The position numbers and the translations under genes were made by a program. From Methanoregula sp. (lineage in GTDB: Archaea; Halobacteriota; Methanomicrobia; Methanomicrobiales; Methanospirillaceae), in the NCBI GenBank assembly GCA_030694985.1, contig JAUYTV010000040.1:1-64000 (forward strand): a DNA stretch of 64,000 nucleotides, written 5' to 3'. The notes under the pieces were generated by a model. That model worked only from the letters and a program-made list of their open reading frames with translations, made no database searches and was not told the DNA's origin. Shown here in pieces: positions 126-49,877 of this stretch (the stretch's first letter is position 1; each line of letters begins with the position of its first letter).

Positions 126-129
126 GGAA

Positions 130-18528: not shown

Positions 18529-18540
18529 GGAATATATACC
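18529..18540 (+). promoter_or_regulatory. Possible TATA box for pseI
   Basis: GGAATATATACC lies about 25 bp before the pseI ATG at 18556 in the A+T-rich pseB-pseI divergent spacer. The spacing would allow only a very short leader, although GGAG sits just before the ATG. Pattern match only. Confidence 0.3.
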
Positions 18541-18555
18541 ATATATGGAGTACTT

Positions 18556-27239: not shown

Positions 27240-27788
27240 GTAGAGTGCCACAATTAATGTCCGTTTTGTTGACAGAGTTTATGTCCGCTTTGGATATATT
27301 TTCGGTCTTTGTTGAAATTGATTTCGTTATGGTAAACTGATGTCGGAGTCATCCATCCCAGGATCTCCTGCTTGCGCCAGCTGTTGTATTGCTGGTCAAA
27401 GTTCCAGAGTTCACGTTTGAAGTGGCTTAACGAGGGGAACACCTTGAGGGCGATGAGTTCCTGGTAGAGGGTCCTATGATAGCGTTCGATCTTGCCGCGA
27501 CCTCTCGGATTGTACGGCCGACCGAAGATAAGTTTAATTCCATGTTTCTGCGCTTCAGCTTTGAAAACCTTGGCGACGAATTGTTTTCCATTATCGAGAT
27601 AGATTTCATGCGGAACTCGTCCGGAGCGAAGTGCCCAGTGAAGTGCATTGACTGCTGATGCAGCATCTTTGTGAAGGTATACCTTGCTTTTCACTCGATA
27701 ACGTGAGCAGTCATCAGTGAAACCGGTTACATAAACCTTACCGACTCCCCGGATACGAAACTGAAATGTATCTCCTTGCCACATGCTG

Positions 27789-33199: not shown

Positions 33200-34179
33200 A
33201 TTTCTGGAAAGGCAAACGGGTTTTTGTAACCGGTTCCACCGGTGTCGTAGGCCTGAACCTTGTCAATCGCCTTGTTTCCTATGGCGCCGAAGTAACGGCT
33301 CTTGTGCGGGATTGGGTACCCCAGGCAACACATCTGGGAGGATGGTTATCTGCAGATTCTGACGTAAACATTGTTCGGGGAGAACTTGAGGATTATTTTT
33401 TTATCCAGAGGGTAATTTCCGAGTACGAAATACAGAATATCTTCCATCTGGGGGCCCAGACGATCGTCAATGTTGGTAATGTTTCGCCGGTAACAACATT
33501 CAAAGCAAATATTGAGGGTACCTGGAATCTGCTGGAAGCCGTCCGGGTCCTCAAGGGATACTCCGGTACAGTAGATTCCGTCTGCGTTGCTTCATCGGAC
33601 AAGGCATACGGTTCAAGTAAGATTCTCCCTTACACAGAAGATATGCCCCTGTGTGGTGAGCATCCCTATGATGTGTCCAAGAGCTGCACCGATCTCATTG
33701 CACAAAGCTATGGAAAGACCTACTCCCTCCCCGTCTCCATTGCGAGGATGGGCAATATCTATGGTCCCGGTGACCTGAATTTCTCCCGGATTATTCCGGG
33801 TACCATCCGGAGTATTCTTGAAGAGAAGGTGCCGGAAATACGGAGCAACGGCACACCCATCCGGGAGTACTTCTTTGTTGAAGATGCCGTGAATGCGTAC
33901 CTTTCCATGGCCGAGAATACCCGCACCATGAATCGTTATGGGGAAGCATTCAATTTCAGCAGTGGAGAAAAAATGAGTGTTACTGATGTTGTCCATCGCA
34001 TCATGACAACGATGGGCTTACAAGGTGAGCCGGTAATCCGGAATACCGGGAGGAATGAAATCCAGGACCAGTACCTTTCAATTAAGAAAGCACAGGATGT
34101 TATGGGATGGCAACCTGAATACTCCTTTGAAAAGGGACTCGTAAAAACTATCGACTGGTACAGGAGACTCCTTGCATGA
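33178..34179 (+). CDS. rfbG: CDP-glucose 4,6-dehydratase
   Basis: This extended SDR converts CDP-glucose to CDP-4-dehydro-6-deoxyglucose. It has the TGSTGVVGLNL cofactor motif near the N-terminus, SDKAYG and HPYDVSKSCTDLI with the catalytic Tyr and Lys, typical of RfbG. I chose ATG 33178 because GGAGGG lies just upstream; a longer form from 33160 is possible. It starts inside rfbF and overlaps the next gene by 4 bp. The resulting 333 residues are slightly shorter than most RfbG (about 357). Confidence 0.88.
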   Translation: MEDLDRVNFWKGKRVFVTGSTGVVGLNLVNRLVSYGAEVTALVRDWVPQATHLGGWLSADSDVNIVRGELEDYFFIQRVISEYEIQNIFHLGAQTIVNVGNVSPVTTFKANIEGTWNLLEAVRVLKGYSGTVDSVCVASSDKAYGSSKILPYTEDMPLCGEHPYDVSKSCTDLIAQSYGKTYSLPVSIARMGNIYGPGDLNFSRIIPGTIRSILEEKVPEIRSNGTPIREYFFVEDAVNAYLSMAENTRTMNRYGEAFNFSSGEKMSVTDVVHRIMTTMGLQGEPVIRNTGRNEIQDQYLSIKKAQDVMGWQPEYSFEKGLVKTIDWYRRLLA

Positions 34180-34625
34180 TTGACGGTGTGACAGTAACCC
34201 CCCTTAAGACAATCCTTGATGAGCGCGGTCTTGTACGACACATGATGAGGTCTACAGATCCCCATTTCCGACAATTCGGTGAGATCTACTTTTCCCAGAT
34301 CTTTCCCAATGCGATAAAAGCCTGGCATGTACACCGGAAGATGGAATTGAATTATGCCGTGATTTCAGGAAATATCAAACTTGTCCTGTACGATGATCGT
34401 CGGGAATCCAGGACCTATAAAGAGCTTCAGGAGATCTTTATGGGAGAGGATAACTACGTAATGGTGACCGTCCCCCCCCATGTTATCAATGGCTTCAAGG
34501 CGATCGGGAACCAGAAAGCCATCGTTGCCAACTGTGCCACCATTCCTCATGACCCGGAGGAGATCGAGCGGTTTGATCCATTCGATAAGAGGATAGGATA
34601 CAACTGGGATATCCGGCAGGGATAA
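34176..34625 (+). CDS. RmlC-like cupin (sugar 3,5-epimerase type)
   Basis: This 149-residue cupin is related to dTDP-4-dehydrorhamnose 3,5-epimerase: IYFSQIFPNAIKAWHVHRKMELNYAVISGNI carries the catalytic-type His and the conserved sheet, followed by VPPHVINGFKAI. In this operon it should act on CDP-4-dehydro-6-deoxyglucose, epimerising C3, C5 or both before reduction. Its ATG overlaps the rfbG stop by 4 bp. It is shorter than RmlC (about 180 residues), as are several specialised 3- or 5-epimerases. Confidence 0.82.
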   Translation: MIDGVTVTPLKTILDERGLVRHMMRSTDPHFRQFGEIYFSQIFPNAIKAWHVHRKMELNYAVISGNIKLVLYDDRRESRTYKELQEIFMGEDNYVMVTVPPHVINGFKAIGNQKAIVANCATIPHDPEEIERFDPFDKRIGYNWDIRQG

Positions 34626-34642
34626 ACCGGGATCCGCTGACC

Positions 34643-35593
34643 ATGACGATAAAAAAGATTCTCGTAACCGGCGCGACAGGTTTCATCGGAAGGCACTTGG
34701 TATCCCGGTTACTTTCTGAAGGATACCTGGTAGGTGCACTGGTTCGTCCGGCACCAGCACCCCAAAAAACCGGCAGAGCCGAAGGGGTCTCCTACTTACC
34801 CGGAGATATCCGGAATTATGATGAACTCAGGACCGCATTTTCGGCCTTTCAACCAGATGCTGTTATCCATCTTGTCACCTATTATGCCGTGATGCACCAG
34901 GCCGATGAGATTGGCGTGATGCTGGATACGAATGTGAAAGGGACCATAAATCTTCTGGAAGCAGCAAAAGAATCTGGCTGTGTCAGACTGTTCATCAACA
35001 CGAGCTCGTGTGCTGTGTATGAAGAGAAGCCACAGCGCATCAGGGAAGATGATACTATCCGGCCCCAGAACCTTTATGCAATGACCAAACTCCAGGCAGA
35101 AGAGGCGTGCAGTTACTATGCCGATGCATTCAAGCTTCCCTGTGTCACTCTCCGCCTGTTTCCTCCCTACGGGCCCGGTGACCATGAACGGCGTCTCATC
35201 CCCTATGTAATAGGGAGCATCCTGAAACAGACTCCTCCCAACCTGACAACCGGGAAACAGGAATGGGATTTTGTCTATGTCGATGATATTGTGGAAGCTT
35301 ACCTGGCAGTATTGAAATCGTATCCTTTCATGGATAAACATGCATTCTTCAATATCGGCACCGGCGAGGCAATTTCCATCCGCTCCGTAGTAGAAAAAAT
35401 ACGGGGGGATCTTTCTTCAGATATGGATCTACCCTGGGGATCTGTTGCACACAGGTCCAATGAAGTCTGGCACAATTCGGCAGATATCACCAAAGCACAA
35501 ACCGTACTCCACTGGTCGCCAAACACCGGTATTGATGAAGGTATTAAAAAGACGGTTGCATGGTTCAGGAATTATTTCCAGATAATTCGTTGA
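34643..35593 (+). CDS. NAD-dependent epimerase/reductase (extended SDR) of the CDP-sugar operon
   Basis: This 316-residue SDR has TGATGFIGRHLV (residues 9-20), a Thr/Ser-rich NTSSCAVYEE region and the YAMTK catalytic pair. Following a CDP-glucose dehydratase and a 3,5-epimerase-like cupin, it is best read as the 4-keto reductase that finishes a CDP-6-deoxyhexose; epimerase activity is the alternative. It starts 17 bp after the cupin stop. No 3-dehydrase (RfbH/AscC) or its reductase (AscD) is present, so a 3,6-dideoxy sugar is not expected from these genes alone. Confidence 0.82.
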   Translation: MTIKKILVTGATGFIGRHLVSRLLSEGYLVGALVRPAPAPQKTGRAEGVSYLPGDIRNYDELRTAFSAFQPDAVIHLVTYYAVMHQADEIGVMLDTNVKGTINLLEAAKESGCVRLFINTSSCAVYEEKPQRIREDDTIRPQNLYAMTKLQAEEACSYYADAFKLPCVTLRLFPPYGPGDHERRLIPYVIGSILKQTPPNLTTGKQEWDFVYVDDIVEAYLAVLKSYPFMDKHAFFNIGTGEAISIRSVVEKIRGDLSSDMDLPWGSVAHRSNEVWHNSADITKAQTVLHWSPNTGIDEGIKKTVAWFRNYFQIIR

Positions 35594-36848: not shown

Positions 36849-37604
36849 ATGCCTTTACGTATTATCGCACGTCTGGATGTAAAGCCCCCTACCGTTGTGA
36901 AACCCATTCGTTTTGAAGGAAACCGACAAATCGGTAACCCAAGGGAATTAGCACGAAAGTATTACGATCAGGGCGCTGATGAAATTTTTTACCTGGACAT
37001 TGTTGCAAGTCTCTATCAAAGAAATATTATCATCGAAGGGGTGACTGATACTTCAGAAGACCTTTTCATTCCCTTTGCTGCGGGTGGTGGAGTAAGAACT
37101 ATTTCAGATTTTGAGCTCCTTCTGCATCATGGTGTTGACAACGTAGTGATCAACACGTATGCGCTACAGCAAGACCCCACTATTATCGAAAGAGCGGCAA
37201 TGATTTTTGGTTCTCAAGCCGTTGTAGTCCACATAGAAGCGAAAAAAATGGGCAGTCGATGGGAATGTTACAGTGACTGCGGTAGATCACGCAGTGGAAA
37301 AGATGTTCTCGACTGGGTTGAAGAGATACAGGATTTGGGTGCAGGGGAAATTTTTGTGAGTTCCGTTGATGCTGATGGACTACAACAAGGGTTCGATATT
37401 GCATTGATTAAAGAGGTTGTCAGCGCAGCTAATGTTCCTGTTGTAGCCGGCAGTGGTGCTGGGTCTCTTGAGCACATACATGCAATGATCCTACAGGCAA
37501 AACCGGATGCGGTTGCTATTGCAAGTATTCTTCACTACGATATAACAACCATTTCAGAGATCAAACATTATCTGCATGATCATGGTATTGAGGTGACATT
37601 ATAA
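36849..37604 (+). CDS. hisF: HisF-like cyclase subunit, amidotransferase partner (D130E)
   Basis: This 251-residue (beta-alpha)8 barrel is clearly related to imidazole-glycerol-phosphate synthase HisF: LDVKPPTVVK, FYLDIVAS, AAGGGVRT, VINTYA and SSVDADG. The first catalytic Asp (D10, matching D11 of the Thermotoga enzyme) is kept. The second, in the IDAK motif, is Glu here (HIEAKK, E130), and the usual DGT is DGL. That suggests it no longer makes histidine precursors and instead delivers ammonia with HisH to the nearby sugar amidotransferase, as HisH2/HisF2 do with WbpG. Its TAA overlaps the proposed hisH ATA start. Confidence 0.85.
   Translation: MPLRIIARLDVKPPTVVKPIRFEGNRQIGNPRELARKYYDQGADEIFYLDIVASLYQRNIIIEGVTDTSEDLFIPFAAGGGVRTISDFELLLHHGVDNVVINTYALQQDPTIIERAAMIFGSQAVVVHIEAKKMGSRWECYSDCGRSRSGKDVLDWVEEIQDLGAGEIFVSSVDADGLQQGFDIALIKEVVSAANVPVVAGSGAGSLEHIHAMILQAKPDAVAIASILHYDITTISEIKHYLHDHGIEVTL
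37590..37596 (+). promoter_or_regulatory. Ribosome-binding site selecting an ATA start for hisH
   Basis: GAGGTGA sits in the last codons of hisF, with GGTG five bases before the ATA at 37601-37603. The hisH frame is closed upstream by TGA at 37589-37591, and the only near-cognate codons after it are ATT (37598) and ATA (37601). No ATG, GTG or TTG occurs before 37703. Confidence 0.55.
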
Positions 37605-38197
37605 CCCAGACTGTTGGTCTCCTCAGTTATGGGGAATCTGCTAACACCTATAGTGTTAAAAAAGCTCTTGAAAAAGTAGGATCTCAAGTACGTCCAATTG
37701 AAGTGAGGAGCGACTTCTCATTAGTTGATAAGCTTTTACTGCCTGGGGTCGGCGGTTTTAAAGATGCGATGCACCACATTGAAGGGATCTCATCATTCCT
37801 TGTTGATGAAATGCTCGAAAAACCCACCCTTGGAATATGCCTCGGAATGCAGATACTTGCAAAAACCGGTTATGAGTATGGGTTAACTGCCGGACTGGGA
37901 TTGATTCATGCTGATGTGAAAAAGATGAATGTTAATGGTAAAGTCCCTCACCTCGGGTGGGCTCCACTGACTATTGTTCATCCCGCTCCTATCTTTGACG
38001 GAATAACCCCTGCTGACAATTTCTATTTTATGCATTCCTATGAAGTCGTTAACACCGAATCTGTTGCGCTATCAAGATATTGCGATCACATGTTCATTTC
38101 TGCGATACGGAAGGGGGACATTTACGGAGTCCAGTTTCATCCGGAAAAGAGCCGAGAACAGGGTTTGAAAATTCTAACGAATTTTATTAATTTGTGA
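37601..38197 (+). CDS. hisH: HisH-like glutamine amidotransferase subunit (noncanonical ATA start)
   Basis: This class I glutaminase of about 198 residues has the triad segments GICLGMQIL (Cys nucleophile) and GVQFHPEKSREQG (His and Glu). The N-terminus TVGLLSYGESANTYSV aligns with the first strand of HisH but lies upstream of the first ATG (37703), which would remove 34 needed residues. The best start is ATA at 37601, overlapping the hisF TAA as ATAA and preceded by GAGGTGA. It would supply ammonia from glutamine to the HisF-like partner and, through it, to the sugar amidotransferase. Confidence 0.82.
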   Translation: MTQTVGLLSYGESANTYSVKKALEKVGSQVRPIEVRSDFSLVDKLLLPGVGGFKDAMHHIEGISSFLVDEMLEKPTLGICLGMQILAKTGYEYGLTAGLGLIHADVKKMNVNGKVPHLGWAPLTIVHPAPIFDGITPADNFYFMHSYEVVNTESVALSRYCDHMFISAIRKGDIYGVQFHPEKSREQGLKILTNFINL

Positions 38198-38295: not shown

Positions 38296-40164
38296 TTATC
38301 CATCTGTAATCAGAGAATCAAGAACAGATTCAAATTGTTCCGGTCTTCGGCCTTTGTTTCCCGAATCGACGAATTTTTCTCTAAGACCTTTTTTATTCTG
38401 GCAATAAAAAATTCCTTTCTGGAGGTAATCTGCAAGATTGGAGCAGAAATCCTCCAAATCGGAACTGAAGACCAGATGCTCCCTGAAGAGGTCCTTTGTG
38501 TTGCTCGTTAAATCTGTATCGTCAAACAGGCAAATATCTGCATCCGTATACATACTCTGGAAAAATGTGGTGCTTACCCAACTGAATATATGCAGGTCTG
38601 CCTCAACCAGTGTGTCCGAAAACGGTCGTTCATTGCGGATATACCTGATATTTACTGCGCCTGAATCACGAATGACTTCGGGCCACATTTCCACTTGTTG
38701 GGAGTTGGGATAATCTTTGACGATGATATCATAAGTATTCTCGAATTTTACAAGTTCTTCAAGAATACGTTTGTGAATTCTCCATATGGACAATTCAGAA
38801 TTCACCCTGTTGTGACCAAAATAGAATTGGTTATGGTGGTAATAATTTCCAATGGAAAACAGGATTTTTTTCCTCTGGTTATCAGGTCTTTTGTAATCTG
38901 AATATAACCTTTCAAAAAAAGGTGATCCCATAACATTTATTTTCTTTAAACGATCTGTATAGCCAATCTTATGTATAATCCAATTGGGGTCAGAAGGAAG
39001 ATCCGCCAAAACCTGACCGTAAACAAAATGCTGATGACTGAGACGATAATCAGTAACATCATAGCCCTGTAAGGATTCGTAGGCTCCATACCCCCCGTGC
39101 ATCCAGCATGAGAAAGGAATCTTTCGTTCCCTGCACCATTTAAAAATAATCACGTTTGGGAGATACAAAGGAGCCATTGTCTGAAAAACTACAAAATCTA
39201 TTTTTTTATGGTCAAGATAATTGCATACTTTTTTGTATTCTTTCAGCACCATCTCAAGTTTATCAGATAAAAACCCGATACAGCGAAGGATCAGATTTGT
39301 GAGATTTGCACCCTTATAGAATAATTGCTGGTTCACAACTTCGTCGTTTTTTACGTAATCGAGGAAGTTTTTCATGTGTGGCCAGTTATTACAACGTCCG
39401 GTATACTCCATGAATGGTGAAAATTTTATCAAATTCGTCTTATGAAACCGGGTGGCATCCAGCGCATCAACTTCTTTGCAGCCGACCGAAATTACCGTTT
39501 GGTATGTGCCCGATTTCTGTAATCTGAACAGCAAGGCAAATTTCAGGTTACACAGTACACTGTAGATACTATCCGTGCTGAACATTTTTTTATACGTTAC
39601 AGGCTGACCAAAAGATATCAAATAAGATGATAACGATTTTATTTGTGGGGGTTGTGTGTGAATCTCCAAAACAGGACTTGTACTCCCAAATGAACGGACG
39701 ATCTCCGGAATAATACTTTTCTCTGATACAAACAGGCCATATAGATCCATTTCAGGCCCGCCATTATCCGCGCAGGCAATGGTATCCACACCCAAATCAA
39801 TCAATTCGCGAATAAGATGAGCAAAATATATCGATTGATCATGTGTGACCTTGAGCATATAACTCAATCTGTCGAAAATCGGAAAGTCCAGTTCTTCAAA
39901 ACGAGGATCTATTTCCCAGAGAATTTCATCTAGTCTGTTTGTTAATAAAAAAAAATTGTAAATTAGGTTTGGATAGTTTTCCCAAAGTTCCTGATGATTG
40001 CAGATTTCACTACATTCTTTGAATGAAAATTCGCATTTACTAAGCTCATAACTCATTTCGGGGCTGATTGAGATAAGCAATGCTTCTGGCTCATTTTTTA
40101 TATAATTCATTTGCCAGAGGTATTCGCAGATTATTGCCTTCATGACGCCCCGTGTAAAATTCAA
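38296..40164 (-). CDS. Large unrecognised GT-B-like glycan protein
   Basis: This 622-residue protein belongs to no family I can name. Its C-terminal third (SIWRIHKRILEELVKFENTYDIIVKDYPNS, later VEADLHIFSWVSTTFFQSMY) follows the pattern of the other large GT-B-like proteins at 5009 and 7117. The longest form starts at a TTG (40164) that overlaps the amidotransferase stop; an ATG at 40143 preceded by GGGG is an alternative. It is translationally coupled to that gene and convergent with hisFH. A transferase acting on the amidinated sugar is a guess from location. Confidence 0.55.
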   Translation of the reverse strand: MNFTRGVMKAIICEYLWQMNYIKNEPEALLISISPEMSYELSKCEFSFKECSEICNHQELWENYPNLIYNFFLLTNRLDEILWEIDPRFEELDFPIFDRLSYMLKVTHDQSIYFAHLIRELIDLGVDTIACADNGGPEMDLYGLFVSEKSIIPEIVRSFGSTSPVLEIHTQPPQIKSLSSYLISFGQPVTYKKMFSTDSIYSVLCNLKFALLFRLQKSGTYQTVISVGCKEVDALDATRFHKTNLIKFSPFMEYTGRCNNWPHMKNFLDYVKNDEVVNQQLFYKGANLTNLILRCIGFLSDKLEMVLKEYKKVCNYLDHKKIDFVVFQTMAPLYLPNVIIFKWCRERKIPFSCWMHGGYGAYESLQGYDVTDYRLSHQHFVYGQVLADLPSDPNWIIHKIGYTDRLKKINVMGSPFFERLYSDYKRPDNQRKKILFSIGNYYHHNQFYFGHNRVNSELSIWRIHKRILEELVKFENTYDIIVKDYPNSQQVEMWPEVIRDSGAVNIRYIRNERPFSDTLVEADLHIFSWVSTTFFQSMYTDADICLFDDTDLTSNTKDLFREHLVFSSDLEDFCSNLADYLQKGIFYCQNKKGLREKFVDSGNKGRRPEQFESVLDSLITDG

Positions 40165-41360
40165 CGAACCTGTTCGCGAAGCTTCCAGTCACAATTTTCC
40201 TGTTTCCAGATATGTGGCAGGCGATACTTATTCACGGTTTTCAAGAATTGCTCTTCAGTAATACCTAAGTGTTCTAAAAATATTTTATAGGTCTTTGCAG
40301 GGAATTCCCCATCGTATCTGTGTACAAGCGCCACACCCTCTTCACGGGTAATCCGGCCTTCACGGATTTCATGAGCTGCATCTGATGTTGCCCGGCCAAA
40401 ACCATACTTTACAAACATCATATAATAAAGGAAAGAATCGGTAAGATCGTCTAATTGGGCGTAATTGGAATATGTTCCTTCTAACCGTCCTTCTGGGTTT
40501 GACTGGAAACCGGTATGCTTGCTGGCGTAGTAGTAATGCTCCTGGGGTTCCCAGAATGTGTAGTAACCAAACCAATGCATCTGAATATCGAGATCTTTGA
40601 GTTTTTCGATAGGTGGCAGCCGGAAAATATCCAGATCATGCGGTTGTATGTTGGGAACGTATCCCAGCTCCTTGGCAAGCCTGGCCATTTCATCTAGATT
40701 TTCGGAATAATATACTTTTTCAAATGCTTCCCATGGTAATCCAGGCGATTCATTATAATCACTTGTGCCGCCGTATTCCGCTTCACCATTTTCACCATAC
40801 ATAACAAGGCTTACATTATGCTCAACGGCTGCCCGGAACGGTGCAGACATTTGCCCCCGATCAAAAATTTCATTATGATCCCCGTAGAGTTCAAAGCACA
40901 TTCTGCCTAGGGCGCGATATAAATCCCCAGCGGGTGAAACCAGATAATGGTGGAATCCGGAGTCAATGAACCTGCGCAGGTTCTTCCAGCCAATATCGGT
41001 ATATTGGGGTGGAGAGAATGTTACACATAAGGGATGCATGCTATATTCAACTTTTAGTCGATGGGCAATCATTGAAGAATCTTTACCGCCGCTGCATGGG
41101 ACTATAACATCAAAAGATCCATCTTTGCTGCGATATTTATCGCATAACCTTTTTAATTCCTGTTTTCTTTTATCCCAATCAATTGTTTTTTTATATTCTG
41201 CGTAACGGCAGGCACTGCAAACTCCTTCCTTATTGAAGGTAATGCGTGGCCGCTGGTTGCTCATAACGCATCTCGTACAAAATTTTACTTCTTTCGGCAA
41301 ATTAAGGATCTGCCGGTCAACAATCTTTTCTTTTAAGTCTTCATTTTCTTCTACCATCAA
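40161..41360 (-). CDS. N-acetyl sugar amidotransferase (PseA/WbpG-like)
   Basis: This 399-residue PP-loop ATP pyrophosphatase has the SGGKDS motif (about residues 89-94) and an upstream four-cysteine cluster, FCTRCVMS and CSACRYAEY (about 27-52), as in the PseA/WbpG/LegA-type family. These enzymes activate an N-acetyl group with ATP and replace its oxygen with ammonia, giving an acetamidino sugar. Ammonia would come from the HisH/HisF pair encoded 2-3 kb away in convergent orientation. The target may be pseudaminate, the second nonulosonate or a diacetamido sugar, since candidates for all three pathways are in this window. Confidence 0.88.
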   Translation of the reverse strand: MMVEENEDLKEKIVDRQILNLPKEVKFCTRCVMSNQRPRITFNKEGVCSACRYAEYKKTIDWDKRKQELKRLCDKYRSKDGSFDVIVPCSGGKDSSMIAHRLKVEYSMHPLCVTFSPPQYTDIGWKNLRRFIDSGFHHYLVSPAGDLYRALGRMCFELYGDHNEIFDRGQMSAPFRAAVEHNVSLVMYGENGEAEYGGTSDYNESPGLPWEAFEKVYYSENLDEMARLAKELGYVPNIQPHDLDIFRLPPIEKLKDLDIQMHWFGYYTFWEPQEHYYYASKHTGFQSNPEGRLEGTYSNYAQLDDLTDSFLYYMMFVKYGFGRATSDAAHEIREGRITREEGVALVHRYDGEFPAKTYKIFLEHLGITEEQFLKTVNKYRLPHIWKQENCDWKLREQVR

Positions 41361-41375: not shown

Positions 41376-42011
41376 CTATATTTTTCCATATACAGAGATC
41401 ATGCCTTCACGCTGCTTATCTGTCACATGGTAGCGCACTATCTCTATGATCTCGAAGGGAAATTTGGCGATAAATTCATCTGGGCCATCAAAAATATCCT
41501 TACCATATGTTTGGTTGTCATAAAATGACAGTTCTACAATAATATGACGGTCTTTGTACTTTTCTTTAAGATGGTAACAGAATGTTTGCCATTGATCCAG
41601 AAAATACCAAGTGGTTTCCCGAATTACGATGAGATCGAAATTAAAATCATGATTAGGAAACTCTGCAACATCCATTATGTGTGTAGTGATGTTTGGAAAG
41701 TTCTTGTTGCATATACCTACAGCCGTTGGGGATACCTCACATCCTTCAACAATAATCTGCGGACATTTCTTGAGTAGCCAGTTGAGATGCATTCCTTTAC
41801 CACTGCCAACACTGAATATCCGTTTATACTCATTACGATTGATAATCAGAGGAGTACGGGAAGAGGTAGGCAAAAACTCCAGATCGTCTTCCGTTTCTGG
41901 CCATGGATTATCGCAATTGCGGTACATCTCCTCAAAACGGCCAACCATCTTGCCGTTTTTAATCACATAATCATGGTAATCTATCGATTCGATGGTTTGT
42001 TCCTTTGTCAT
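41376..42011 (-). CDS. Small SAM-dependent methyltransferase
   Basis: This 211-residue protein has motif I in FSVGSGKGMHLNWL (about residues 66-79) and VEGCEVSPTAVGI with the acidic ribose ligand, which places it among class I methyltransferases. It lies 15 bp upstream of the amidotransferase on the same strand and about 70 bp after the next SDR gene, so it is part of the leftward glycan operon. The methyl acceptor is unknown. Confidence 0.75.
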   Translation of the reverse strand: MTKEQTIESIDYHDYVIKNGKMVGRFEEMYRNCDNPWPETEDDLEFLPTSSRTPLIINRNEYKRIFSVGSGKGMHLNWLLKKCPQIIVEGCEVSPTAVGICNKNFPNITTHIMDVAEFPNHDFNFDLIVIRETTWYFLDQWQTFCYHLKEKYKDRHIIVELSFYDNQTYGKDIFDGPDEFIAKFPFEIIEIVRYHVTDKQREGMISVYGKI

Positions 42012-42079: not shown

Positions 42080-42970
42080 TTAAACCATCTCTTCTGTAAT
42101 TATCCTTTTCATAAATTCATTTGAATTGTGAGGTTCAAAATCGAGAAGAATTCGAGCGAGAGTGATATCCGCGATGGAATCATACATTGTGAAATCTGCT
42201 TGTTTCTCTTCCCATTTTGCATTTGGGAATAATTCACAGACCATGTTGAGAATTTCCCGTATCTGAACCCCTTTTCCGGAACCAATATTGATCACACGGT
42301 TCACTGACTTCTCATATGCCACTGCGTGATATACTGCTTCCGCAACATCCCCGGCATAAATAAAATCCCTGTACTGGTACGGGCCGAAACTTTCGATAAT
42401 TTCACCTTTCTTTGCTTTATCGATAAAGATGCCGATTACTCCTTCATTTCCTTTTCCGTATACGTTAAAAAAACGTAAGATTACATAATTTATGCCATAA
42501 TTTTTTTGGTAGGATTGGACCATTTTTTCACACAGGATCTTGTGCCAGGAATAGATATTCGTCGGTTGCGGCGTGAAATTTTCTTTGATGGGCAGATCCT
42601 CTGTTATTCCGTAAATTGCTGCAGAGGACGGGAAGACAATTTTTTTATTTCCCGATATCCTACAGGCTTCAAGGATATTCTGAAGTGAAAGAACGTTAAG
42701 TTGAAAACTTTTCATTGGGTTTTTCTGAGCAACATTTGAATCAGCCAATCCTACTAGATGGACGACAACATCGTTCCGCTCAACAACCTTTTGTAAGGAG
42801 GACAGATCAAAAATATCCCCCTGTATATATGATGTATTTGCATTGAGGGGAAACCTCGGTTCAATGATGTCAAAAATGGTGACTGTATTGTTGTTTTCTG
42901 AAAATTTCTTCACCATGTGACTGCCGACAAACCCAGAACCCCCGGTGATTAGGATATTTTGTTTTTTCAT
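42080..42970 (-). CDS. NAD-dependent epimerase/dehydratase (extended SDR)
   Basis: This 296-residue SDR has TGGSGFVGSHMV near the N-terminus (residues 8-19), VFPSSAAIYG and the catalytic YSWHK. It resembles UDP-glucose/GlcNAc 4-epimerase-like enzymes more than the 4,6-dehydratases. It starts 3 bp after the DegT gene stop, so the two act together. It could produce the keto-sugar that the aminotransferase uses, or adjust its stereochemistry. Confidence 0.83.
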   Translation of the reverse strand: MKKQNILITGGSGFVGSHMVKKFSENNNTVTIFDIIEPRFPLNANTSYIQGDIFDLSSLQKVVERNDVVVHLVGLADSNVAQKNPMKSFQLNVLSLQNILEACRISGNKKIVFPSSAAIYGITEDLPIKENFTPQPTNIYSWHKILCEKMVQSYQKNYGINYVILRFFNVYGKGNEGVIGIFIDKAKKGEIIESFGPYQYRDFIYAGDVAEAVYHAVAYEKSVNRVINIGSGKGVQIREILNMVCELFPNAKWEEKQADFTMYDSIADITLARILLDFEPHNSNEFMKRIITEEMV

Positions 42971-42973: not shown

Positions 42974-44101
42974 TTATCTCCGTTTGGAGAATTTGCCGAT
43001 CTGTTCGGCCATCAAATCCATCTCATCTTTTGTCAGCTGTGGGTACATGGGAAGAGTCAGGCACCGTGAAGCCAGTTTCTCTGTCATCGGCAGCGAGGGA
43101 GAGTATTTCAGAACGTTCCTGTAGAAGTGCGACAGGTGAACGGGTGGGAAGTACAGCTTTGCCATGATGCCCGCATCGCCAAGTGCCTTCATCAGGGCAT
43201 CGCGGTCTTCGGACTCGATGGTGTACATCTGGAAGAGGTGGAAGCGATCCTTAGAAGGGCTCGGGGTCTTTACTGCCCCTCCGGCCTTCTTGATGGCCTT
43301 TGTTAAGTATTCTGCATTCTTCCGGCGGATGCTGATGATTTTGTCGAGCTTGTCCATCTGTGCAACACCAAGGGCTGCCGTAATGTTAGACATCCGGAAA
43401 TTGTACCCGAGGCTGATGTAGTCCAGATATTCATTGGTGGAGAAGTAATCCTTGGTGTCTGCTCTCCCGTGGGAGCGTAGCAGCTTGATCTTCTCGTAGA
43501 TGTCCTTTGAATCGGTTACTATAACCCCGCCTTCCCCGGTGGTTATGACCTTAGGCCCGCAGAAGGAGAACATCGAGGACTCCCCAAAGGTCCCAACCAT
43601 TTTGTTGTTGACTTTTGCCCCCAGGGATTCTGCTGCGTCTTCAAAGAGGAGAATCCCGTGGTCATCGGCAATCTCCCTGAGTTCCTCAATCTTGCAGGCA
43701 TATCCGCCGACATGGACGGGCATGATTGCCTTGGTCTTCTTGGTGATACATTCTTTGACGGACTCGGGATCAAGACCATAGTAATCTTTCTCGATATCGG
43801 CAAATTTCGGTTTGGCACCAACAAAGAACGGGCAGTTGGCTGTTGCAATGAAGGTGAATGACGGGACAATGACTTCATCCCCTTTACCGATCCCGTGAGC
43901 AAGGAGCTGTGCATGGAGGGCTGATGTGCCGGAATTGAGCGTGACTGCATATTTTGTGCCGACATAGTCGGCAACTCTGCTTTCAAGTTCATTGACTTTT
44001 GGCCCGGTTGCCCAGTTCATCCCTGAACGGATGACTTCAGCAACCTGGTCGACATCATTATCATCTGAGTATATTTTGAAAAGCGGTATTTTCCAGTTCA
44101 T
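42974..44101 (-). CDS. DegT-family sugar aminotransferase (LegC/PglE-like)
   Basis: This 375-residue PLP enzyme has the Schiff-base lysine in SFCGPKVITTGEGG (about K184), EDAAESLGAKVNNKMVG and the NSGTSALHAQL stretch, typical of LegC, PglE and perosamine synthase-like 4-aminotransferases. Its start overlaps the stop of the acetyltransferase gene by 4 bp. With that acetyltransferase it would install and acetylate a C4 amine on a UDP-4-keto-6-deoxy sugar. No matching 4,6-dehydratase lies next to it; pseB is far away and inverting. Confidence 0.88.
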   Translation of the reverse strand: MNWKIPLFKIYSDDNDVDQVAEVIRSGMNWATGPKVNELESRVADYVGTKYAVTLNSGTSALHAQLLAHGIGKGDEVIVPSFTFIATANCPFFVGAKPKFADIEKDYYGLDPESVKECITKKTKAIMPVHVGGYACKIEELREIADDHGILLFEDAAESLGAKVNNKMVGTFGESSMFSFCGPKVITTGEGGVIVTDSKDIYEKIKLLRSHGRADTKDYFSTNEYLDYISLGYNFRMSNITAALGVAQMDKLDKIISIRRKNAEYLTKAIKKAGGAVKTPSPSKDRFHLFQMYTIESEDRDALMKALGDAGIMAKLYFPPVHLSHFYRNVLKYSPSLPMTEKLASRCLTLPMYPQLTKDEMDLMAEQIGKFSKRR

Positions 44102-44526
44102 TGAATTTCCTCCTCCATTTTTGCGATTTCATCTGGTGTGAGGGTTCTGATGACCCGTACCGGTACACCAAATGCCACAACATTTTTCGGAATATCTTTA
44201 GTCACATAACTGAATGCACCGACAATGGTATTTTCCCCGACTGTCACGTTGGGCATCACAGCGCTATGCGTTCCAATACGGCAATTTTTTTTCAATACTA
44301 CTGGGCCTTCCCTGCTGTCAATAGTGGAAAGCGAGTAGATGGAACAATGCGAACCAATCTGCACAAAATCTTCAAGGATTACTCCATGTTTTGCATTGAT
44401 GTAACTGAATGCACCAATGTCAGTTCTGTCCCCGAGTGTGAGGTTCTCTTTGTACTGAACGAGCCAGTTGTATTTGGTTGGTTTCCCATTTTCAATCTCG
44501 GGAGCAACCCAGTTTGGGAACCTCAT
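44098..44526 (-). CDS. Left-handed beta-helix acetyltransferase (WbbJ-like)
   Basis: This 142-residue hexapeptide-repeat protein shows repeats such as LTLGDRTDIGAFSYI, VILEDFVQIGSHCSI and VTVGENTIVGAFSYV, with the family's conserved loop KNVVAFGVPVRVIR near the end. Such trimeric enzymes transfer acetyl groups from acetyl-CoA to sugars. Overlap with the DegT gene by 4 bp suggests acetylation of the amino group made there, as LegH or PglD would do. The upstream 148 bp to neuC shows no further gene. Confidence 0.85.
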   Translation of the reverse strand: MRFPNWVAPEIENGKPTKYNWLVQYKENLTLGDRTDIGAFSYINAKHGVILEDFVQIGSHCSIYSLSTIDSREGPVVLKKNCRIGTHSAVMPNVTVGENTIVGAFSYVTKDIPKNVVAFGVPVRVIRTLTPDEIAKMEEEIQ

Positions 44527-44674: not shown

Positions 44675-45823
44675 TCAATAGAAGTTTTTCTTCTGGATAC
44701 AGGTTTTTGTGAAATCCACCTGCCGGAGCACCTCAACGATCCTTTTCGAGCTGTCACCCTTTCCATAGGGATTTTTACAGCGACGGACTTTATCTAGGAA
44801 GTCTGTGTCAGAGAGTGCCTTTTCGATAGAGGCTGCAATCTCATGTCTGGTGTATCCTGTGTTAATGACATTTCCCGAACGCTCCCGGCCTTCCTGGCGG
44901 GTGCCAATGTTAACCACAGGCAGGTGGAATGAGGGTGCTTCGATGATGCCGCTGCTTGAGTTCCCGATAAGGACGGAGGCGATCTTCAGAAGGCCGAGAT
45001 AATCGTCATGGGGGAGATTTTTGTGAGCTTGTACTGAGCCCTGTTTCCAGCTGAACTCTTCAATGACAACAATCATCTTTCTTCCCCCTGCATCTGCGTT
45101 CGGGTATACCACAAGTACCTGGACCGGCAGGTCGGATACTGCCTCAAGTGTTGCCAGCATCTGCCCTGCCGCATTGGCAACCTCGGCCGAGACAGGGTGC
45201 TGCACAACAAGAACGAGTGGTTTGTCAGGAGTGATCCTATATTTCCTGACCAGCTCCTCCATGGGAGTGAACGTTCCCGAAAGGATGGGTTCAAGCCCCG
45301 GTGCCCCGACAACATGCACCCATGACGGGTCCTCACCCATGCGGATGATCCTCCGGGCACTCTTTCTGGTTGCCGGCAGGTGGAGGTGAGCAAGTTTTGT
45401 TATCGCATGGCGGACGGGCTCATCCACCGTTGAGGTGACTTCCCCGCCATGGAGGTGGGCAACCGGGATCCCGGCATATGTTCCGACAATTGCCCCGGCA
45501 AGCATCTCCCCGCGGTCGCCAAGGAGCAGTATGAGGTCCGGGCGAATCTTCTGAACTTTTTTTGTCAGGGCAACGATGAGATTTCCGATAAAAGTCGCCA
45601 TTGATTCCCGGGTATCCTCCTCGTGCAGGACCGGGATGCGGTGAAGGGTAAAGCCATCGGCAACAATCTCATCAACCGAGTTGCCGAAGTCCGGCATAAG
45701 GTGCATACCGGTGGCGATGATCTCCAGCTCAAGGTCAGGAGCCTCATGGATCCTGGAGAGTACGGATCGCATTAGTCCATAATCCGCGCGTGTCCCGCTG
45801 ATGTACAGAATTTTCTTTGTCAT
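44675..45823 (-). CDS. neuC: UDP-N-acetylglucosamine 2-epimerase, hydrolysing (NeuC/LegG type)
   Basis: This 382-residue GT-B-fold enzyme would release UDP and form ManNAc or a 4-substituted relative. Hallmarks are ISGTRADYGLM (residues 8-18), LLLGDRGEMLAGA, HLHGGEVTSTVDEPVRHAITKLAHLHL and IGNSSSGIIEAP. I chose the ATG at 45823, which forms an ATGA overlap with the neuB stop; the frame extends five codons further upstream. LegG (acting on a diacetamido sugar) cannot be told apart from NeuC by eye. The nearby aminotransferase and acetyltransferase argue mildly for LegG. Confidence 0.88.
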   Translation of the reverse strand: MTKKILYISGTRADYGLMRSVLSRIHEAPDLELEIIATGMHLMPDFGNSVDEIVADGFTLHRIPVLHEEDTRESMATFIGNLIVALTKKVQKIRPDLILLLGDRGEMLAGAIVGTYAGIPVAHLHGGEVTSTVDEPVRHAITKLAHLHLPATRKSARRIIRMGEDPSWVHVVGAPGLEPILSGTFTPMEELVRKYRITPDKPLVLVVQHPVSAEVANAAGQMLATLEAVSDLPVQVLVVYPNADAGGRKMIVVIEEFSWKQGSVQAHKNLPHDDYLGLLKIASVLIGNSSSGIIEAPSFHLPVVNIGTRQEGRERSGNVINTGYTRHEIAASIEKALSDTDFLDKVRRCKNPYGKGDSSKRIVEVLRQVDFTKTCIQKKNFY

Positions 45824-46869
45824 TCCAACATTTCCCACTGGAGGACGGTGTCCTTTTTTATGGTTTTTCCTGCCCGTTTTCCAATGACAGAAGCCAGGTG
45901 TTTTGTTTCAATGCCTGTACCTGGTCGTTTCGTATCGATCATATCCCGGGTTACCTGTGTTCCTTTGGGAATCACCGTTGCCGCGACAAGGCTTTTCCGT
46001 GCGATCTTACGGATTGCTGCCTCGGTCTTTCCGATATGCTTCACGCCATCGCCCATTGCAGATTCCGCCAAACGGACTTGCCTGATAAGTTTGGTAAGTT
46101 CGGCCGGTTCAAGGGATGCCTTGTGGTCCGGCCCCGGCAGGCGCCGGTCAAGGGTAAAGTGTTTCTCGATGACACAGGCACCAAGGGCGCGGGCAAGCAC
46201 GGAAGCTATAACTCCCTCAGTATGATCGGAAAAACCTACGGGGAGGTCAAATTCCTTTTCAAGGGTCGGGATCATCAGGAGATTAGCTGATTCCAGCGGT
46301 GCAGGATAACTGGTTACACAGTGGAGGAGAACGATCTTCTTCGATCCTCCGCGGTGGATGGCGCCAATCCCTTCGCGTATCTCCTCCATGTCTGCCATGC
46401 CCGTTGAAATAATAACGGGTTTGTTGTAACTCGCAATCTGTTCAAGTAGGGGAATGTTCGTAAGCTCTCCGGATGGGATCTTGTACGCCCGGACCCCCAT
46501 GGATTCGAGAAGTTCGGCGCTTTTTCGATCAAAGGGTGAGGAGAGGAATTCGATGCCGCACTTCCCGGCATACTCCGAAAGGACGACAAATGCATCACGG
46601 GAGAGTTCAAGGCGTTTGAGCATTTCGTACTGAGTTTCAGTGGCGTCCGAGGTCCTTTTCTGGTAAGCTGCTTTTTGTGCAGTCTTTGTGGCAATGGAAT
46701 CTGTCAAGAAGGTCTGAAACTTGACGGCATCAGCGCCGGCTTTAGCTGCGGCCTTCACCAGTTTTTTTGCCAACCCAAGTTCCCCATTATGGTTTACCCC
46801 AGCCTCGGCAATGATATAACAGGGTCGGTCCTTTCCGATAATCCGATTTCCGATCGTAATCCATTTCAT
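45820..46869 (-). CDS. neuB: N-acetylneuraminate/legionaminate synthase
   Basis: This 349-residue NeuB-family enzyme condenses a ManNAc-type sugar with phosphoenolpyruvate to form a nonulosonic acid. It shows IAEAGVNHNGELG (residues 20-32), ADAVKFQTF, IPSGELTNIP, GFSDHTEGVIAS and IEKHFTLDRRLPGPDHKASLEP, the sialate/legionaminate type rather than the PseI type. A SAF domain occupies about residues 290-349. It is coupled by 4-bp overlaps to neuA upstream and neuC downstream. Confidence 0.92.
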   Translation of the reverse strand: MKWITIGNRIIGKDRPCYIIAEAGVNHNGELGLAKKLVKAAAKAGADAVKFQTFLTDSIATKTAQKAAYQKRTSDATETQYEMLKRLELSRDAFVVLSEYAGKCGIEFLSSPFDRKSAELLESMGVRAYKIPSGELTNIPLLEQIASYNKPVIISTGMADMEEIREGIGAIHRGGSKKIVLLHCVTSYPAPLESANLLMIPTLEKEFDLPVGFSDHTEGVIASVLARALGACVIEKHFTLDRRLPGPDHKASLEPAELTKLIRQVRLAESAMGDGVKHIGKTEAAIRKIARKSLVAATVIPKGTQVTRDMIDTKRPGTGIETKHLASVIGKRAGKTIKKDTVLQWEMLE

Positions 46870-47504
46870 TGGGCAGACTCCGGGTTCTGTTTTCGTAAGA
46901 TATGATCATTTAGCCAGAAATCAAATTCATCATCGATCTCGAAACTACACTCACGGTCAACTATCAGTGTCTCCCGTTTTCCGGCAAAGAGATCCCCGTT
47001 GATGATATTTTTTGCTCTAACAACATAGACATTGCCGTCATCATGGAAGAATGGTTGCAGTTCCTGTCGGCGTGCGGAGTAGGTGCCCCACTCAAATAGG
47101 TCGCAGAGATATCCGGTGGCAAGTGCATCTGCGCCGGATTTCTGGAATTTCTCAACGCACCGGTCGATCAGCCCTGGTGTACGGACCGGGGAAGTACACT
47201 GGAGCAGGACCACAATATTTGGGTCGATTTTGGTGATAAGATCCTGGAGGACGGCTAGCGTTGTTGCCGTATCGGTTGCAAGATCTGCTGGCCGGTCTAT
47301 CACCTCCGCTCCAAAGGAACGCGAGATGCCAGCGATCTCTGCATCTTCGGTGGAAACAATAAACCGGTCTAGGTGTTTGGATTGCATGGCGGCTTCTATG
47401 GTCCATACTATCAGGGGCTTCCCGCAGATCGGTTTGATATTTTTTTTGGGTATTCCCTTGCTCCCGCCGCGTGCCGGGATAACGCCAAGGATCATCTGCT
47501 TCAC
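46866..47504 (-). CDS. neuA: CMP-nonulosonate (acylneuraminate) cytidylyltransferase
   Basis: This 212-residue enzyme has the NeuA signature PARGGSKGIPKKN (residues 10-22), STEDAEIA, LLQCTSPVR with the metal-binding region, and DIDDEFDF-like EIDDEFDFWL at the C-terminus. It would form the CMP-activated sugar of the second nonulosonate pathway. Its ends overlap the KdnA-like gene and neuB by 4 bp each. It is a different subfamily from the two SpsF/PseF-type enzymes at 13105 and 15433. Confidence 0.9.
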   Translation of the reverse strand: MKQMILGVIPARGGSKGIPKKNIKPICGKPLIVWTIEAAMQSKHLDRFIVSTEDAEIAGISRSFGAEVIDRPADLATDTATTLAVLQDLITKIDPNIVVLLQCTSPVRTPGLIDRCVEKFQKSGADALATGYLCDLFEWGTYSARRQELQPFFHDDGNVYVVRAKNIINGDLFAGKRETLIVDRECSFEIDDEFDFWLNDHILRKQNPESAQ

Positions 47505-48670
47505 ATCTGCCTGATGCAGTCGTGAACTGCTTTCACTGTTTTCTCGATCTGCGCATCCGGCATATTGACAAAAATCGGGAGGGCCACAGCTCTTCGGAGC
47601 AGGTCATCGGACTGAGCAAAGACCTTAAGCAGGTCTTTTCCTTTATACTTCGGGAAGTGCTCCAGCATGTGGTCCCACGTACCGGCAAAATGCCAGTTGA
47701 TGGCATCGGGAAGGTTCTTGGTCCCGAATCCTTTTGCCGTCCAGAGTTTCATGAACGCTTTGGTCTCATCCCGGCTGGAGAACGAGAAGATGATGCTGTC
47801 CCCGGTATCCCCTTCAGGGTTCGGGACATCCCGGAAGGTAATTTCGGGGATGTCTGAGAGGGCCTTTTTAATTCGGGACTTGTTCTCCCGCTGCCGCCCG
47901 ATGATGTAATCCATCTTTTTGATCTGGGCGAGACCGATCGCTCCCTGCAGTTCGTTCATCTTGAGGTTGATCCCGCTGATCATGCGGGTGTCTTCGCCCC
48001 GGGGAAAATTGGGGTTCAGTTCGTGGCCATGGTCCGAGTATTCCCGTGCCCGTTTGAAGATAGCCTCGTTGTTGGTGATGATCATCCCACCTTCGCCGGT
48101 TGTCAGCACCTTGCCAAAATCGAAACTGGTGATGCTGGCATCACCAAGCGTGCCGAGCTTCTTTTTCTTGTAGGTCCCGCCACAGCATTGGGCATTGTCC
48201 TCAAGAACCGGGATCTTGTGGGCGCGTGCGATTTTCAGGATCTCGTTCATCCGGGCTGAAACTCCCATCATGTGGACGGGGATGATGGTTTTTGTCTTTT
48301 TCGTGATCTTCTTTTCAAGATCGGCCGGGTCCATGTTGAGGGAAGCATCGACTTCGGTAATGACCGGCGTTGCCCCTACTTCGACAATTGCCTCAACCGT
48401 TGCAATGAAAGTGTGGCTCTGGGTGATGACCTCGTCACCACGGGAGATCCCCATGGCCTTAAGTGCTGCAATGAGAGCACCGGTCCCTGAACTCACGGCA
48501 AGAGCGTGTTTTATGCCCATCCGTTCTGCAAATACCCGTTCGAATTCGTCTACCCGAAAGATGTTCTCCCGCTTGTCGGCCCAACCGTAGCGGTACAATA
48601 CTGCACCATGATCAAACACGTCGTTAACGGCGGCCCGTTCTTCTTCACCTATTAGCTCCCATCCTGGCAT
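47501..48670 (-). CDS. DegT aminotransferase resembling KdnA (8-amino-Kdo transaminase)
   Basis: This 389-residue PLP enzyme has lysine K187 in SFDFGKVLTTGEGG. Its opening, MPGWELIGEEERAAVNDV followed by VLYRYG, is of the kind seen in KdnA, which aminates the 8-keto form of Kdo in Shewanella. The neighbour upstream is an iron-containing alcohol dehydrogenase, the partner type of KdnB. Here the pair sits in a neuA-neuB-neuC operon, so the substrate may be a nonulosonate (C9) rather than Kdo. The KdnA match is from memory of the family's N-terminus and needs a search. Confidence 0.75.
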   Translation of the reverse strand: MPGWELIGEEERAAVNDVFDHGAVLYRYGWADKRENIFRVDEFERVFAERMGIKHALAVSSGTGALIAALKAMGISRGDEVITQSHTFIATVEAIVEVGATPVITEVDASLNMDPADLEKKITKKTKTIIPVHMMGVSARMNEILKIARAHKIPVLEDNAQCCGGTYKKKKLGTLGDASITSFDFGKVLTTGEGGMIITNNEAIFKRAREYSDHGHELNPNFPRGEDTRMISGINLKMNELQGAIGLAQIKKMDYIIGRQRENKSRIKKALSDIPEITFRDVPNPEGDTGDSIIFSFSSRDETKAFMKLWTAKGFGTKNLPDAINWHFAGTWDHMLEHFPKYKGKDLLKVFAQSDDLLRRAVALPIFVNMPDAQIEKTVKAVHDCIRQM

Positions 48671-48686
48671 TTTTTTACCTCTGATA

Positions 48687-49877
48687 TTATGGAGTCATGC
48701 TCATGACCAGTCTCTTTCCATCCTCAACCGTGAAGGGCACCGGGTTCTGTGCAAATGCCCGTTCCAGCGAGTCGATTTCGTGAAGGAATAGGTGTACATT
48801 GCCGGAATTCACCCCAAACCCGCCAAGTTTCTCCGGCACCTCGAGTCTTTTGCAGAGTGCAAATATCTTCTCACTAAACTGTTCATTCTTGACTTTCTTC
48901 GGTAGGGTACGGTCCACACCGTCAATGAGATCATACAGCTCGCTATAGTCATAGCCGGTTTTCACATTATGCTTTATGACATGGGCGATAAAAACTGCTC
49001 CGGCAATCCCGTGGGGTACCTTGAAGTGCACGCCAAGGGGGTATGACAAGGCTCCCGCGATCCCAGACCCTGAATTGATAAGGGAGATGCCGGCAAGGTA
49101 TGCTCCGTACTGTATCTTTGCCCGGACTTCAACATCGCCGGGATTGTCCTTGACGAGGTAGAGGTTGTTGAAGACCATGGAGAAGGCTTCCCGGGCAAAG
49201 ATCCGGCTCATCGGGTTTGACTGCACGGCCATATAGCTCTCAAGGGTGTGGACAAGGGCGTCCATACCGGAGGAGACAGTGACCGACATCGGACTGTTGA
49301 CCGTGAAGAGGGGGTCAAGGACTGCAAGCGTCGGATAGTTATTGCGGGTGTTGATGCCAAGCTTCTTCACCGCATCATTGTCTGTGAAGACGGCATTGTA
49401 CGTGACTTCGCTTCCGGTTCCGGCTGTTGTCGGGAGGGCAATTGTGGGAAGTGATGGGACGATGCCGGTCGGGAAACCCTTATACTGCACTGCTTTTCCC
49501 GGATTGACGACAACAGTTGCGAGCCCTTTTGCAAAATCGAGGACGCTCCCACCACCGATCCCGATAAAACAGTCCGTGACCGGTCTGTCAGATGCATCAA
49601 GGAACATCGTCTTGATCCGATCGAGCGAGTCATAGTCCGGTTCGTGCCGGAGGTCATAGATCCAGATCTTTACGGTTAGGCCCGGTTCCTTTTCCAAGGC
49701 TGCAAGAACGTTTTTGGTGTATTCAAGCCCGGCAATCCCGCCGTCAACAATGACGCCGGGTCTGGTGAGCGAGAGTTCTTTGAGGTATTGAGCAAGCCGG
49801 AGGGCTTTTTTCGCACCGAACTTTGCATTGGTTTTGAGATTGAAATCAAAATCCATAGAACCTTTCGAATTTTGCAT
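48687..49877 (-). CDS. Iron-containing alcohol dehydrogenase, possible KdnB counterpart
   Basis: This 396-residue group III (iron) alcohol dehydrogenase has the GIGGGSVLDFAKG NAD-binding loop (about residues 101-113), LPTTAGTGSEVT, and metal ligands Asp and His in SSGMDALVHTLESY plus His residues in KVPHGIAGAVFIAHVIKHN. It opens the leftward operon, 16 bp ahead of the KdnA-like transaminase. In the Kdo8N pathway KdnB oxidises the terminal hydroxyl before transamination, and the same logic here would create an aldehyde on a nonulosonate or precursor. A general fermentative alcohol dehydrogenase is unlikely in this location. Confidence 0.82.
   Translation of the reverse strand: MQNSKGSMDFDFNLKTNAKFGAKKALRLAQYLKELSLTRPGVIVDGGIAGLEYTKNVLAALEKEPGLTVKIWIYDLRHEPDYDSLDRIKTMFLDASDRPVTDCFIGIGGGSVLDFAKGLATVVVNPGKAVQYKGFPTGIVPSLPTIALPTTAGTGSEVTYNAVFTDNDAVKKLGINTRNNYPTLAVLDPLFTVNSPMSVTVSSGMDALVHTLESYMAVQSNPMSRIFAREAFSMVFNNLYLVKDNPGDVEVRAKIQYGAYLAGISLINSGSGIAGALSYPLGVHFKVPHGIAGAVFIAHVIKHNVKTGYDYSELYDLIDGVDRTLPKKVKNEQFSEKIFALCKRLEVPEKLGGFGVNSGNVHLFLHEIDSLERAFAQNPVPFTVEDGKRLVMSMTP

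Follow-up and report, generated by a model that had tools for sequence, protein, structure and literature searches.

The cassette described here lies in a stretch of 64,000 nucleotides from Methanoregula sp. (assembly GCA_030694985.1, contig JAUYTV010000040.1, positions 1 to 64,000; hereafter called the window). It consists of five genes on the minus strand encoding, in the direction of transcription, a group III dehydrogenase of the iron-containing alcohol dehydrogenase (Fe-ADH) family, a KdnA-like transaminase of the DegT family and the nonulosonate enzymes NeuA, NeuB and NeuC (Table 1). A gap of 16 bp separates the first two genes, whereas the following ones overlap by 4 bp (KdnA and NeuA), 4 bp (NeuA and NeuB) and 19 bp (NeuB and NeuC). 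All five open reading frames (ORFs) are intact, and assignments by Pfam and NCBIfam confirmed the families, order and short gaps or overlaps that had been given in a preliminary description of this DNA. The NeuC-NeuB-NeuA set is complete, with NeuB and NeuC scoring above their NCBIfam cut-offs and NeuA being recognized by its CTP_transf_3 domain and its position in a tree. Past NeuC, a gap of 148 bp is followed on the same strand by genes for a hexapeptide acyltransferase, a second DegT enzyme (DegT2), a GalE-like short-chain dehydrogenase/reductase (SDR), a methyltransferase, WbuX and a 622-residue ORF, and the transcription unit may reach position 38296. The gene order from the dehydrogenase through the SDR is identical in a second genome (G062) belonging to the same order as the window genome.

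Table 1. Position and assignment of the features in the window, with the cassette listed ahead of its neighbors.
Feature	Position	Strand	Basis and remarks
Group III (Fe-ADH family) dehydrogenase, 396 amino acids	48687-49877	minus	PF00465/PF25137; proposed oxidation of terminal CH2OH to aldehyde
Gly275 codon of the dehydrogenase	49053-49055	minus	Position taken to be that of metal ligand FucO His263 / human ADHFE1 His330
KdnA-like pyridoxal phosphate (PLP) transaminase (DegT), 389 amino acids	47501-48670	minus	PF01041; proposed amination of the aldehyde
Clade-specific stretch GFGTKNLPDAINWHFAGTW, residues 314-332 of the KdnA-like enzyme	47675-47731	minus	Alignment
NeuA-type CMP-nonulosonate synthetase, 212 amino acids	46866-47504	minus	PF02348 (CTP_transf_3) and tree
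NeuB-family nonulosonate synthase with SAF domain, 349 amino acids	45820-46869	minus	PF03102 and SAF; TIGR03569, 451.6 bits (cut-off 399.65)
NeuC-type UDP-sugar 2-epimerase, 387 amino acids	44675-45838	minus	PF02350; TIGR03568, 427.7 bits (cut-off 235.9)
Hexapeptide-repeat acyltransferase	44098-44526	minus	PF00132; possible N-acylation
DegT2	42974-44101	minus	
SDR, GalE-like	42080-42970	minus	
Small methyltransferase	41376-42011	minus	PF13649, weak NodS match; possible amine modifier
WbuX-type N-acetyl sugar amidotransferase	40161-41360	minus	TIGR03573, 345.7 bits (cut-off 203.2)
HisF/WbuZ-like WbuX partner	36849-37604	plus	TIGR00735 and TIGR03572 just below cut-off; HisF homologues in the L006, L010 and L016 cassettes
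HisH/WbuY-like glutaminase, WbuX partner	37703-38197	plus	HisH homologues beside HisF and WbuX in L006, L010 and L016

KdnA is a transaminase of Shewanella oneidensis, where it acts together with KdnB and KdsB (PDB 5k8c, 5k8b) in the pathway to the 8-amino derivative (Kdo8N) of 3-deoxy-D-manno-octulosonic acid (Kdo) (Gattis et al., 2013, cited in PMC5125639). A search of solved structures with the window transaminase (TRANSAMINASE) returned KdnA (5k8b) as the top match (292 bits, E = 6e-86, residues 1-384), followed by a perosamine synthetase with 176 bits. The enzyme is 39% identical to Shewanella KdnA over the whole length, and the KdnA-like N-terminus that had been noted before (MPGWELIGEEE as compared to MPGFELFGPEE in KdnA) belongs to a likeness that extends through the entire protein. 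Homologues were collected from one genome per species, covering 84,980 species, and the best 80 of the 133 loci found were used for phylogenetic analysis. In the resulting quick tree, which has long outgroup branches, the window transaminase fell into a clade of 15 (Shimodaira-Hasegawa-like approximate likelihood ratio test, SH-aLRT, 100) drawn from nine archaeal and bacterial groups, while Shewanella-type KdnA formed a separate clade of 28 (SH-aLRT 99), the enzymes of Desulfomonile and Desulfarculus were placed outside both clades, and every DegT outgroup row fell outside the KdnA-like enzymes (SH-aLRT 100). This phylogeny, which had been proposed in the preliminary description, groups the DegT enzyme with KdnA and apart from the nucleotide-sugar transaminases that make up the outgroup. 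Within the family alignment, Lys187 of the SxDxxK PLP stretch, His327 and Trp332 are invariant and Trp326 is nearly so, whereas the surrounding loop reads GxG[TF]KNxPDAxxWH[FY]AGTW in the window clade and FYWYxNNWHYLKNW, or a close variant, in the Shewanella-type clade. The difference between the two motifs (TKNLPDA versus FYWYxNN) agrees with the split seen in the tree, which does not place the window enzyme inside the Shewanella-type clade, and the clade-specific stretch may contact the substrate. Judged by its sequence, the DegT enzyme is a true relative of KdnA.

The two KdnA clades also differ in their genomic surroundings. A NeuB gene lies within 8 kb of KdnA in 12 of the 15 loci of the window clade as compared to none of 66 others (Fisher p ~6e-12, not corrected for shared descent), and the arrangement, which recurs in distant phyla, is beyond chance. 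Directly upstream of KdnA, a group III dehydrogenase is present in 11/15 loci of the window clade, and NeuA follows directly downstream in 10/15, with some contigs ending too early to tell. The type of CMP-synthetase found beside KdnA tracks the clade as well: in a tree with two sides, both supported at 100/100, the synthetases of the window clade fall beside NeuA of E. coli K1 and those of the other loci beside KdsB. In line with this, the nearest solved relatives of the window NeuA are CMP-N-acetylneuraminic acid (CMP-Neu5Ac) synthetases, with KdsB matching far more weakly. In the L013 genome, a second contig encodes a PseF-like synthetase, NeuB and NeuC; in L015, this same gene order is found downstream of KdnA and a methyltransferase.

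For the dehydrogenase, the best solved relatives were methanol dehydrogenases (1e-41), and KdnB matched much more weakly (1e-20), behind ordinary Fe-ADHs. The predicted model of the protein (mean predicted local distance difference test score, pLDDT, 93.8) shows the complete Fe-ADH fold; methanol dehydrogenase resembles it most, and the Shewanella homologue 3rf7 ranks 48th. In a first Fe-ADH tree, the nine cassette dehydrogenases formed a clade of their own (100/99) with KdnB apart from it; in a second tree, from which fragmentary and very long rows had been dropped, this clade and KdnB were joined (90/86, with a long-branch warning). Since the two trees disagree, neither placement of KdnB is claimed. 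The third metal-ligand position, which we take to be that of FucO His263, is occupied by Gly in all nine cassette enzymes, as compared to His in all 30 others compared, including KdnB. The window enzyme keeps the ligands D206, H210 and H289, but the full Asp/His/His/His site is lost through Gly275, and its name should not contain the word iron. The metal-ligand residues, including human ADHFE1 His330, are those listed in section 3.7 of PMC5125639. The same paper also describes maleylacetate reductases in which the ligand Asp is replaced and which are active without metal, so that the dehydrogenase with Gly275 could still be active as well. The KdnB-like nature ascribed to the dehydrogenase in the preliminary description is not supported in view of the weak match, the conflicting trees and the replacement of a His that KdnB keeps. 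With one metal ligand missing and no firm kinship to KdnB, the reaction of this enzyme is uncertain and constitutes the weakest link of the model presented below. In two Bacteroidota (L016 and L017), the window type of KdnA is paired with a KdnB-type dehydrogenase (100/99 in the Fe-ADH tree).

In order to act on Kdo, the pair would depend on a source of this sugar. The window genome (96% complete) yielded no protein of the KDO8P/DAHP-synthase family (PF00793), while 11 of 14 control genomes were positive, and no KdsA above the cut-off was found in G062 (98% complete), in two Woesearchaeota or in one member of the Thermoplasmata with the cassette. NeuB is present in all five of these archaeal hosts. 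As opposed to this, KdsA is present in each of the 12 genomes tested from the other KdnA clades, four of which gave no NeuB match. The absence of a recognizable KdsA argues against Kdo as the substrate in the five archaeal hosts. Together with the kinship to KdnA and the linkage of its clade to NeuA, NeuB and NeuC, the lack of the KDO8P/DAHP family makes terminal amination of a nonulosonic acid the most economical reading. We therefore propose, with a probability of roughly 0.55, that the product of the cassette is a CMP-activated nonulosonic acid bearing a primary amine at its terminal carbon C9, and that amination takes place on a Neu5Ac-like acid before CMP activation. In this scheme, NeuC would convert UDP-N-acetylglucosamine (UDP-GlcNAc) to N-acetylmannosamine (ManNAc) or a close analogue, which NeuB would condense with phosphoenolpyruvate to a Neu5Ac-like acid retaining the C9 hydroxyl group. 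The dehydrogenase would oxidize this group to an aldehyde, the KdnA-type enzyme would turn the aldehyde into CH2NH2 by transamination, and NeuA would link the aminated acid to CMP for the synthesis of surface glycans, after which accessory acyl-, methyl- or amidotransferases may modify the amine. The sequence of events would copy the logic by which Kdo is converted to Kdo8N and CMP-Kdo8N; the substrate, the C9 position, the order of the steps and the oxidation by the dehydrogenase are what we infer. Of the terminal-amine pair postulated in the preliminary description, the kinship to KdnA, the linkage to neu genes and the lack of a Kdo-synthase family in the window genome speak in its favor, whereas the KdnB identity, the option of a legionaminic acid and the supposed archaeal specificity were not retained.

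Several other readings of the same genes have to be considered. A true Kdo8N pathway, in which the pair aminates Kdo itself, would account for the homology to KdnA, and KdsA is present in several bacteria of the window clade, for which the argument from Kdo supply is silent. Nevertheless, the partner enzyme is NeuA and not KdsB, the loop adjacent to the WH residues differs, and KdsA is missing in the archaeal hosts, which renders this reading very improbable overall; for the archaeal hosts it was rejected. The option of a legionaminic-like acid needs a different product, since legionaminic and pseudaminic acid derive from a 6-deoxy sugar and carry a methyl group at C9, with no hydroxyl group there to be aminated. 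Legionaminic acid, which had been named as one possibility in the preliminary description, is therefore an unlikely substrate for a C9 amination, and the pair would have to aminate a different carbon, for instance C8 or C4, or else another sugar that accompanies the acid in the glycan. The comparison of the synthases leaves room for this: the window NeuB is 44% identical to the LegI of a separate legionaminic-type cluster (L111) in the L016 genome and 42% identical to NeuB of E. coli K1, it matches the solved structures of SpsE, PseI and SiaC at nearly level scores that do not discriminate, and the NeuB and NeuC trees give the window enzymes no firm position between Neu5Ac and legionaminic types. 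Moreover, the best solved relatives of the window NeuC are diacetylbacillosamine 2-epimerases, a protein close to LegB is encoded on another contig (C37) of the window genome, and in L020 the module is joined to a legionaminic-type cluster with LegC above the cut-off. On the other hand, no LegB or LegC above the cut-off was found in the window genome (best LegB 451 of 475 bits, on the contig just named; best LegC 275 of 420), and among the other cassette genomes tested LegB exceeded the cut-off in only 2/11 and LegC in 2/12. The DegT2 of the operon remains below the LegC cut-off, the SDR of the operon has the motif SSAAIYG in place of the Asp-Glu that we take to be the hallmark of dehydratases, and group III dehydrogenases mostly act on primary alcohols. 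The L016 and L017 cassettes, in addition, use a NeuB that is 68-69% identical to SiaC of N. meningitidis and groups with it in the NeuB tree (100/100). SiaC is a Neu5Ac synthase, and Neu5Ac has a hydroxyl group at C9, which makes these two loci the clearest case for such a substrate. All in all, a 6-deoxy product appears improbable, and the product of the window NeuB likely retains its C9 hydroxyl group.

The same C9-amino end product could also arise from the same genes if the pair acted before NeuB, oxidizing and aminating C6 of UDP-GlcNAc or ManNAc, so that NeuB would condense 6-amino-ManNAc. DegT enzymes are mostly nucleotide-sugar enzymes, many of which appear among the structure matches of the transaminase. 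However, its nearest relative KdnA uses a free ulosonic acid, the enzyme lies outside the nucleotide-sugar transaminases of the outgroup, and the adjacency of KdnA and NeuA genes (10/15 loci) is kept even where NeuB is not adjacent (L007 and L014), which is why we consider an early amination unlikely. More doubtful still is the assumption that the dehydrogenase and the DegT enzyme serve another sugar of a shared glycan island, such as a 3- or 4-amino sugar, their only tie to neuABC being a common transcript. Other sugar pathways are indeed encoded in the island, and a dehydrogenase short of one metal ligand would be in line with such a role, but the arrangement is kept over nine archaeal and bacterial groups and the type of CMP-synthetase follows the KdnA clade. 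Terminal amination of a Neu5Ac-like acid after the NeuB step hence remains the preferred reading. Weighing against it are the poor match of the dehydrogenase to KdnB together with its lost ligand, the intermediate identities of the window NeuB, the near-LegB of the window genome, and the L020 locus, whose legionaminic-type cluster is a misfit with a C9-hydroxyl substrate; furthermore, we know of no assay for any enzyme of the window KdnA clade.

With respect to known systems, the cassette resembles the Kdo8N operon of Shewanella oneidensis in combining an Fe-ADH-family dehydrogenase, a KdnA-family transaminase and a CMP-ulosonate synthetase, and in the proposed conversion of CH2OH to CH2NH2 at the terminal carbon. 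It differs by the separate KdnA clade with another loop, the missing metal ligand of the dehydrogenase, NeuA in place of KdsB, the additional NeuB and NeuC, and the lack of KdsA in archaeal hosts. The NeuC-NeuB-NeuA families in one operon are shared with the bacterial Neu5Ac pathway of E. coli K1 and N. meningitidis (SiaC), although the neu locus of E. coli K1 contains neither a KdnA-type transaminase nor a dehydrogenase. Daptide biosynthesis (PMC10036551) is another case in which a dehydrogenase of the Fe-ADH superfamily, together with a transaminase, reportedly installs a terminal amine. This is similar in outline, but the daptide pair acts on the C-terminus of a peptide, and the daptide dehydrogenase family NF041822 matched the window dehydrogenase only weakly (48 bits, cut-off 300). 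In archaea, the legionaminic acid pathway of Halorubrum sp. PV6 likewise comprises a nonulosonic acid synthase and a CMP-synthetase for surface glycans; unlike the window cassette, it proceeds through 6-deoxy intermediates to a product with a methyl group at C9, and no KdnA or Fe-ADH step is described for it (PMC6137143).

While the chemistry of terminal amination itself is already known from Kdo8N, its application to a nonulosonate would be new. A literature search for natural 9-amino nonulosonic acids yielded nothing relevant, with most subscription papers lying outside its coverage. To our knowledge, no natural C9-amino nonulosonic acid has been described, and the only ulosonic acid that we know to be aminated at its terminal carbon is Kdo, in Shewanella-type bacteria. 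If the proposal holds true, a sialic acid would gain a positive charge at its outer end, and the diversity of these acids would reach into archaea and uncultured bacteria. The two KdnA clades would moreover offer a ready comparison for the choice between substrates of eight and of nine carbons. The preliminary description had regarded the pathway as an archaeal one, which the distribution does not bear out: many bacteria carry the cassette, and the window type of KdnA occurs in just 2 of 394 genomes of the window's own phylum. Such a rare occurrence despite a spread over nine groups suggests horizontal transfer of the cassette. As a tentative generalization, to which we would give somewhat less than even odds, the cassette might be a mobile one that specifies an undescribed class of naturally occurring sialic acids, namely 9-amino-9-deoxy-nonulosonic acids, either free or in acylated, methylated or amidinated form. 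Its hosts would include methanogens, Woesearchaeota and Thermoplasmata as well as members of several bacterial phyla; they would rely on a sister clade of KdnA, and most of them would have recruited a dehydrogenase whose metal site is altered instead of KdnB. Several transposase-like ORFs, recognized by eye, are located in or beside the glycan island of the window (17-2774 and 25567-28649) and fit the patchy occurrence.

Next to the five core genes, genes for possible modifying enzymes recur in the cassettes. Homologues of the acyltransferase (55-64% identical) follow NeuC in L005, L008, L011 and L012. Homologues of the methyltransferase occur beside WbuX in L010 (L116; 52% identical) and, in weaker form, directly after KdnA in L013 and L015. 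The L006 and L010 cassettes include WbuX homologues that are 64-66% identical, and the L016 cassette includes one with 45% identity; in the window, WbuX and its HisF- and HisH-like partners constitute an acetamidino-forming set on converging strands. In the Woesearchaeota locus L008 (10829-12230), an LmbE-like ORF (by eye) and a formyltransferase (Pfam) lie between NeuB and NeuC; N-formylated legionaminic acid has been reported for Halorubrum sp. PV6 (PMC6137143). The recurrence of WbuX and of formyl-, methyl- and acyltransferase genes fits an amine product but does not prove the position of the amine.

Some of the compared loci show further peculiarities. In L011 (Thermoplasmata, 4059-5801), a divergent NeuB domain fused to a cytidylyltransferase domain is encoded directly after KdnA and is followed by two radical-SAM genes and an ordinary NeuB-NeuC pair. 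The KdnA-like gene of L020 (Elusimicrobia, 7998-9172) is split into two ORFs, by a frameshift or an assembly error. The near-LegB of the window genome (G000, contig C37; L109, 2358-3347) is a 4,6-dehydratase with a TSEVYG motif, encoded beside a sugar-1-phosphate nucleotidyltransferase, another SDR and a glycosyltransferase; with no NeuB nearby, it is not counted in the pathway, although it might conceivably take part. The window itself additionally encodes a pseudaminic acid pathway at 13927-19611, with PseG (13927-15369, with an extra C-terminal part), PseC (16161-17351), PseB (17359-18333) and PseI (18556-19611) all scoring above their NCBIfam cut-offs. Four CDP-hexose-like genes, namely a nucleotidyltransferase, two SDRs and a cupin-like epimerase, were recognized by eye from the translations at 32408-35593.

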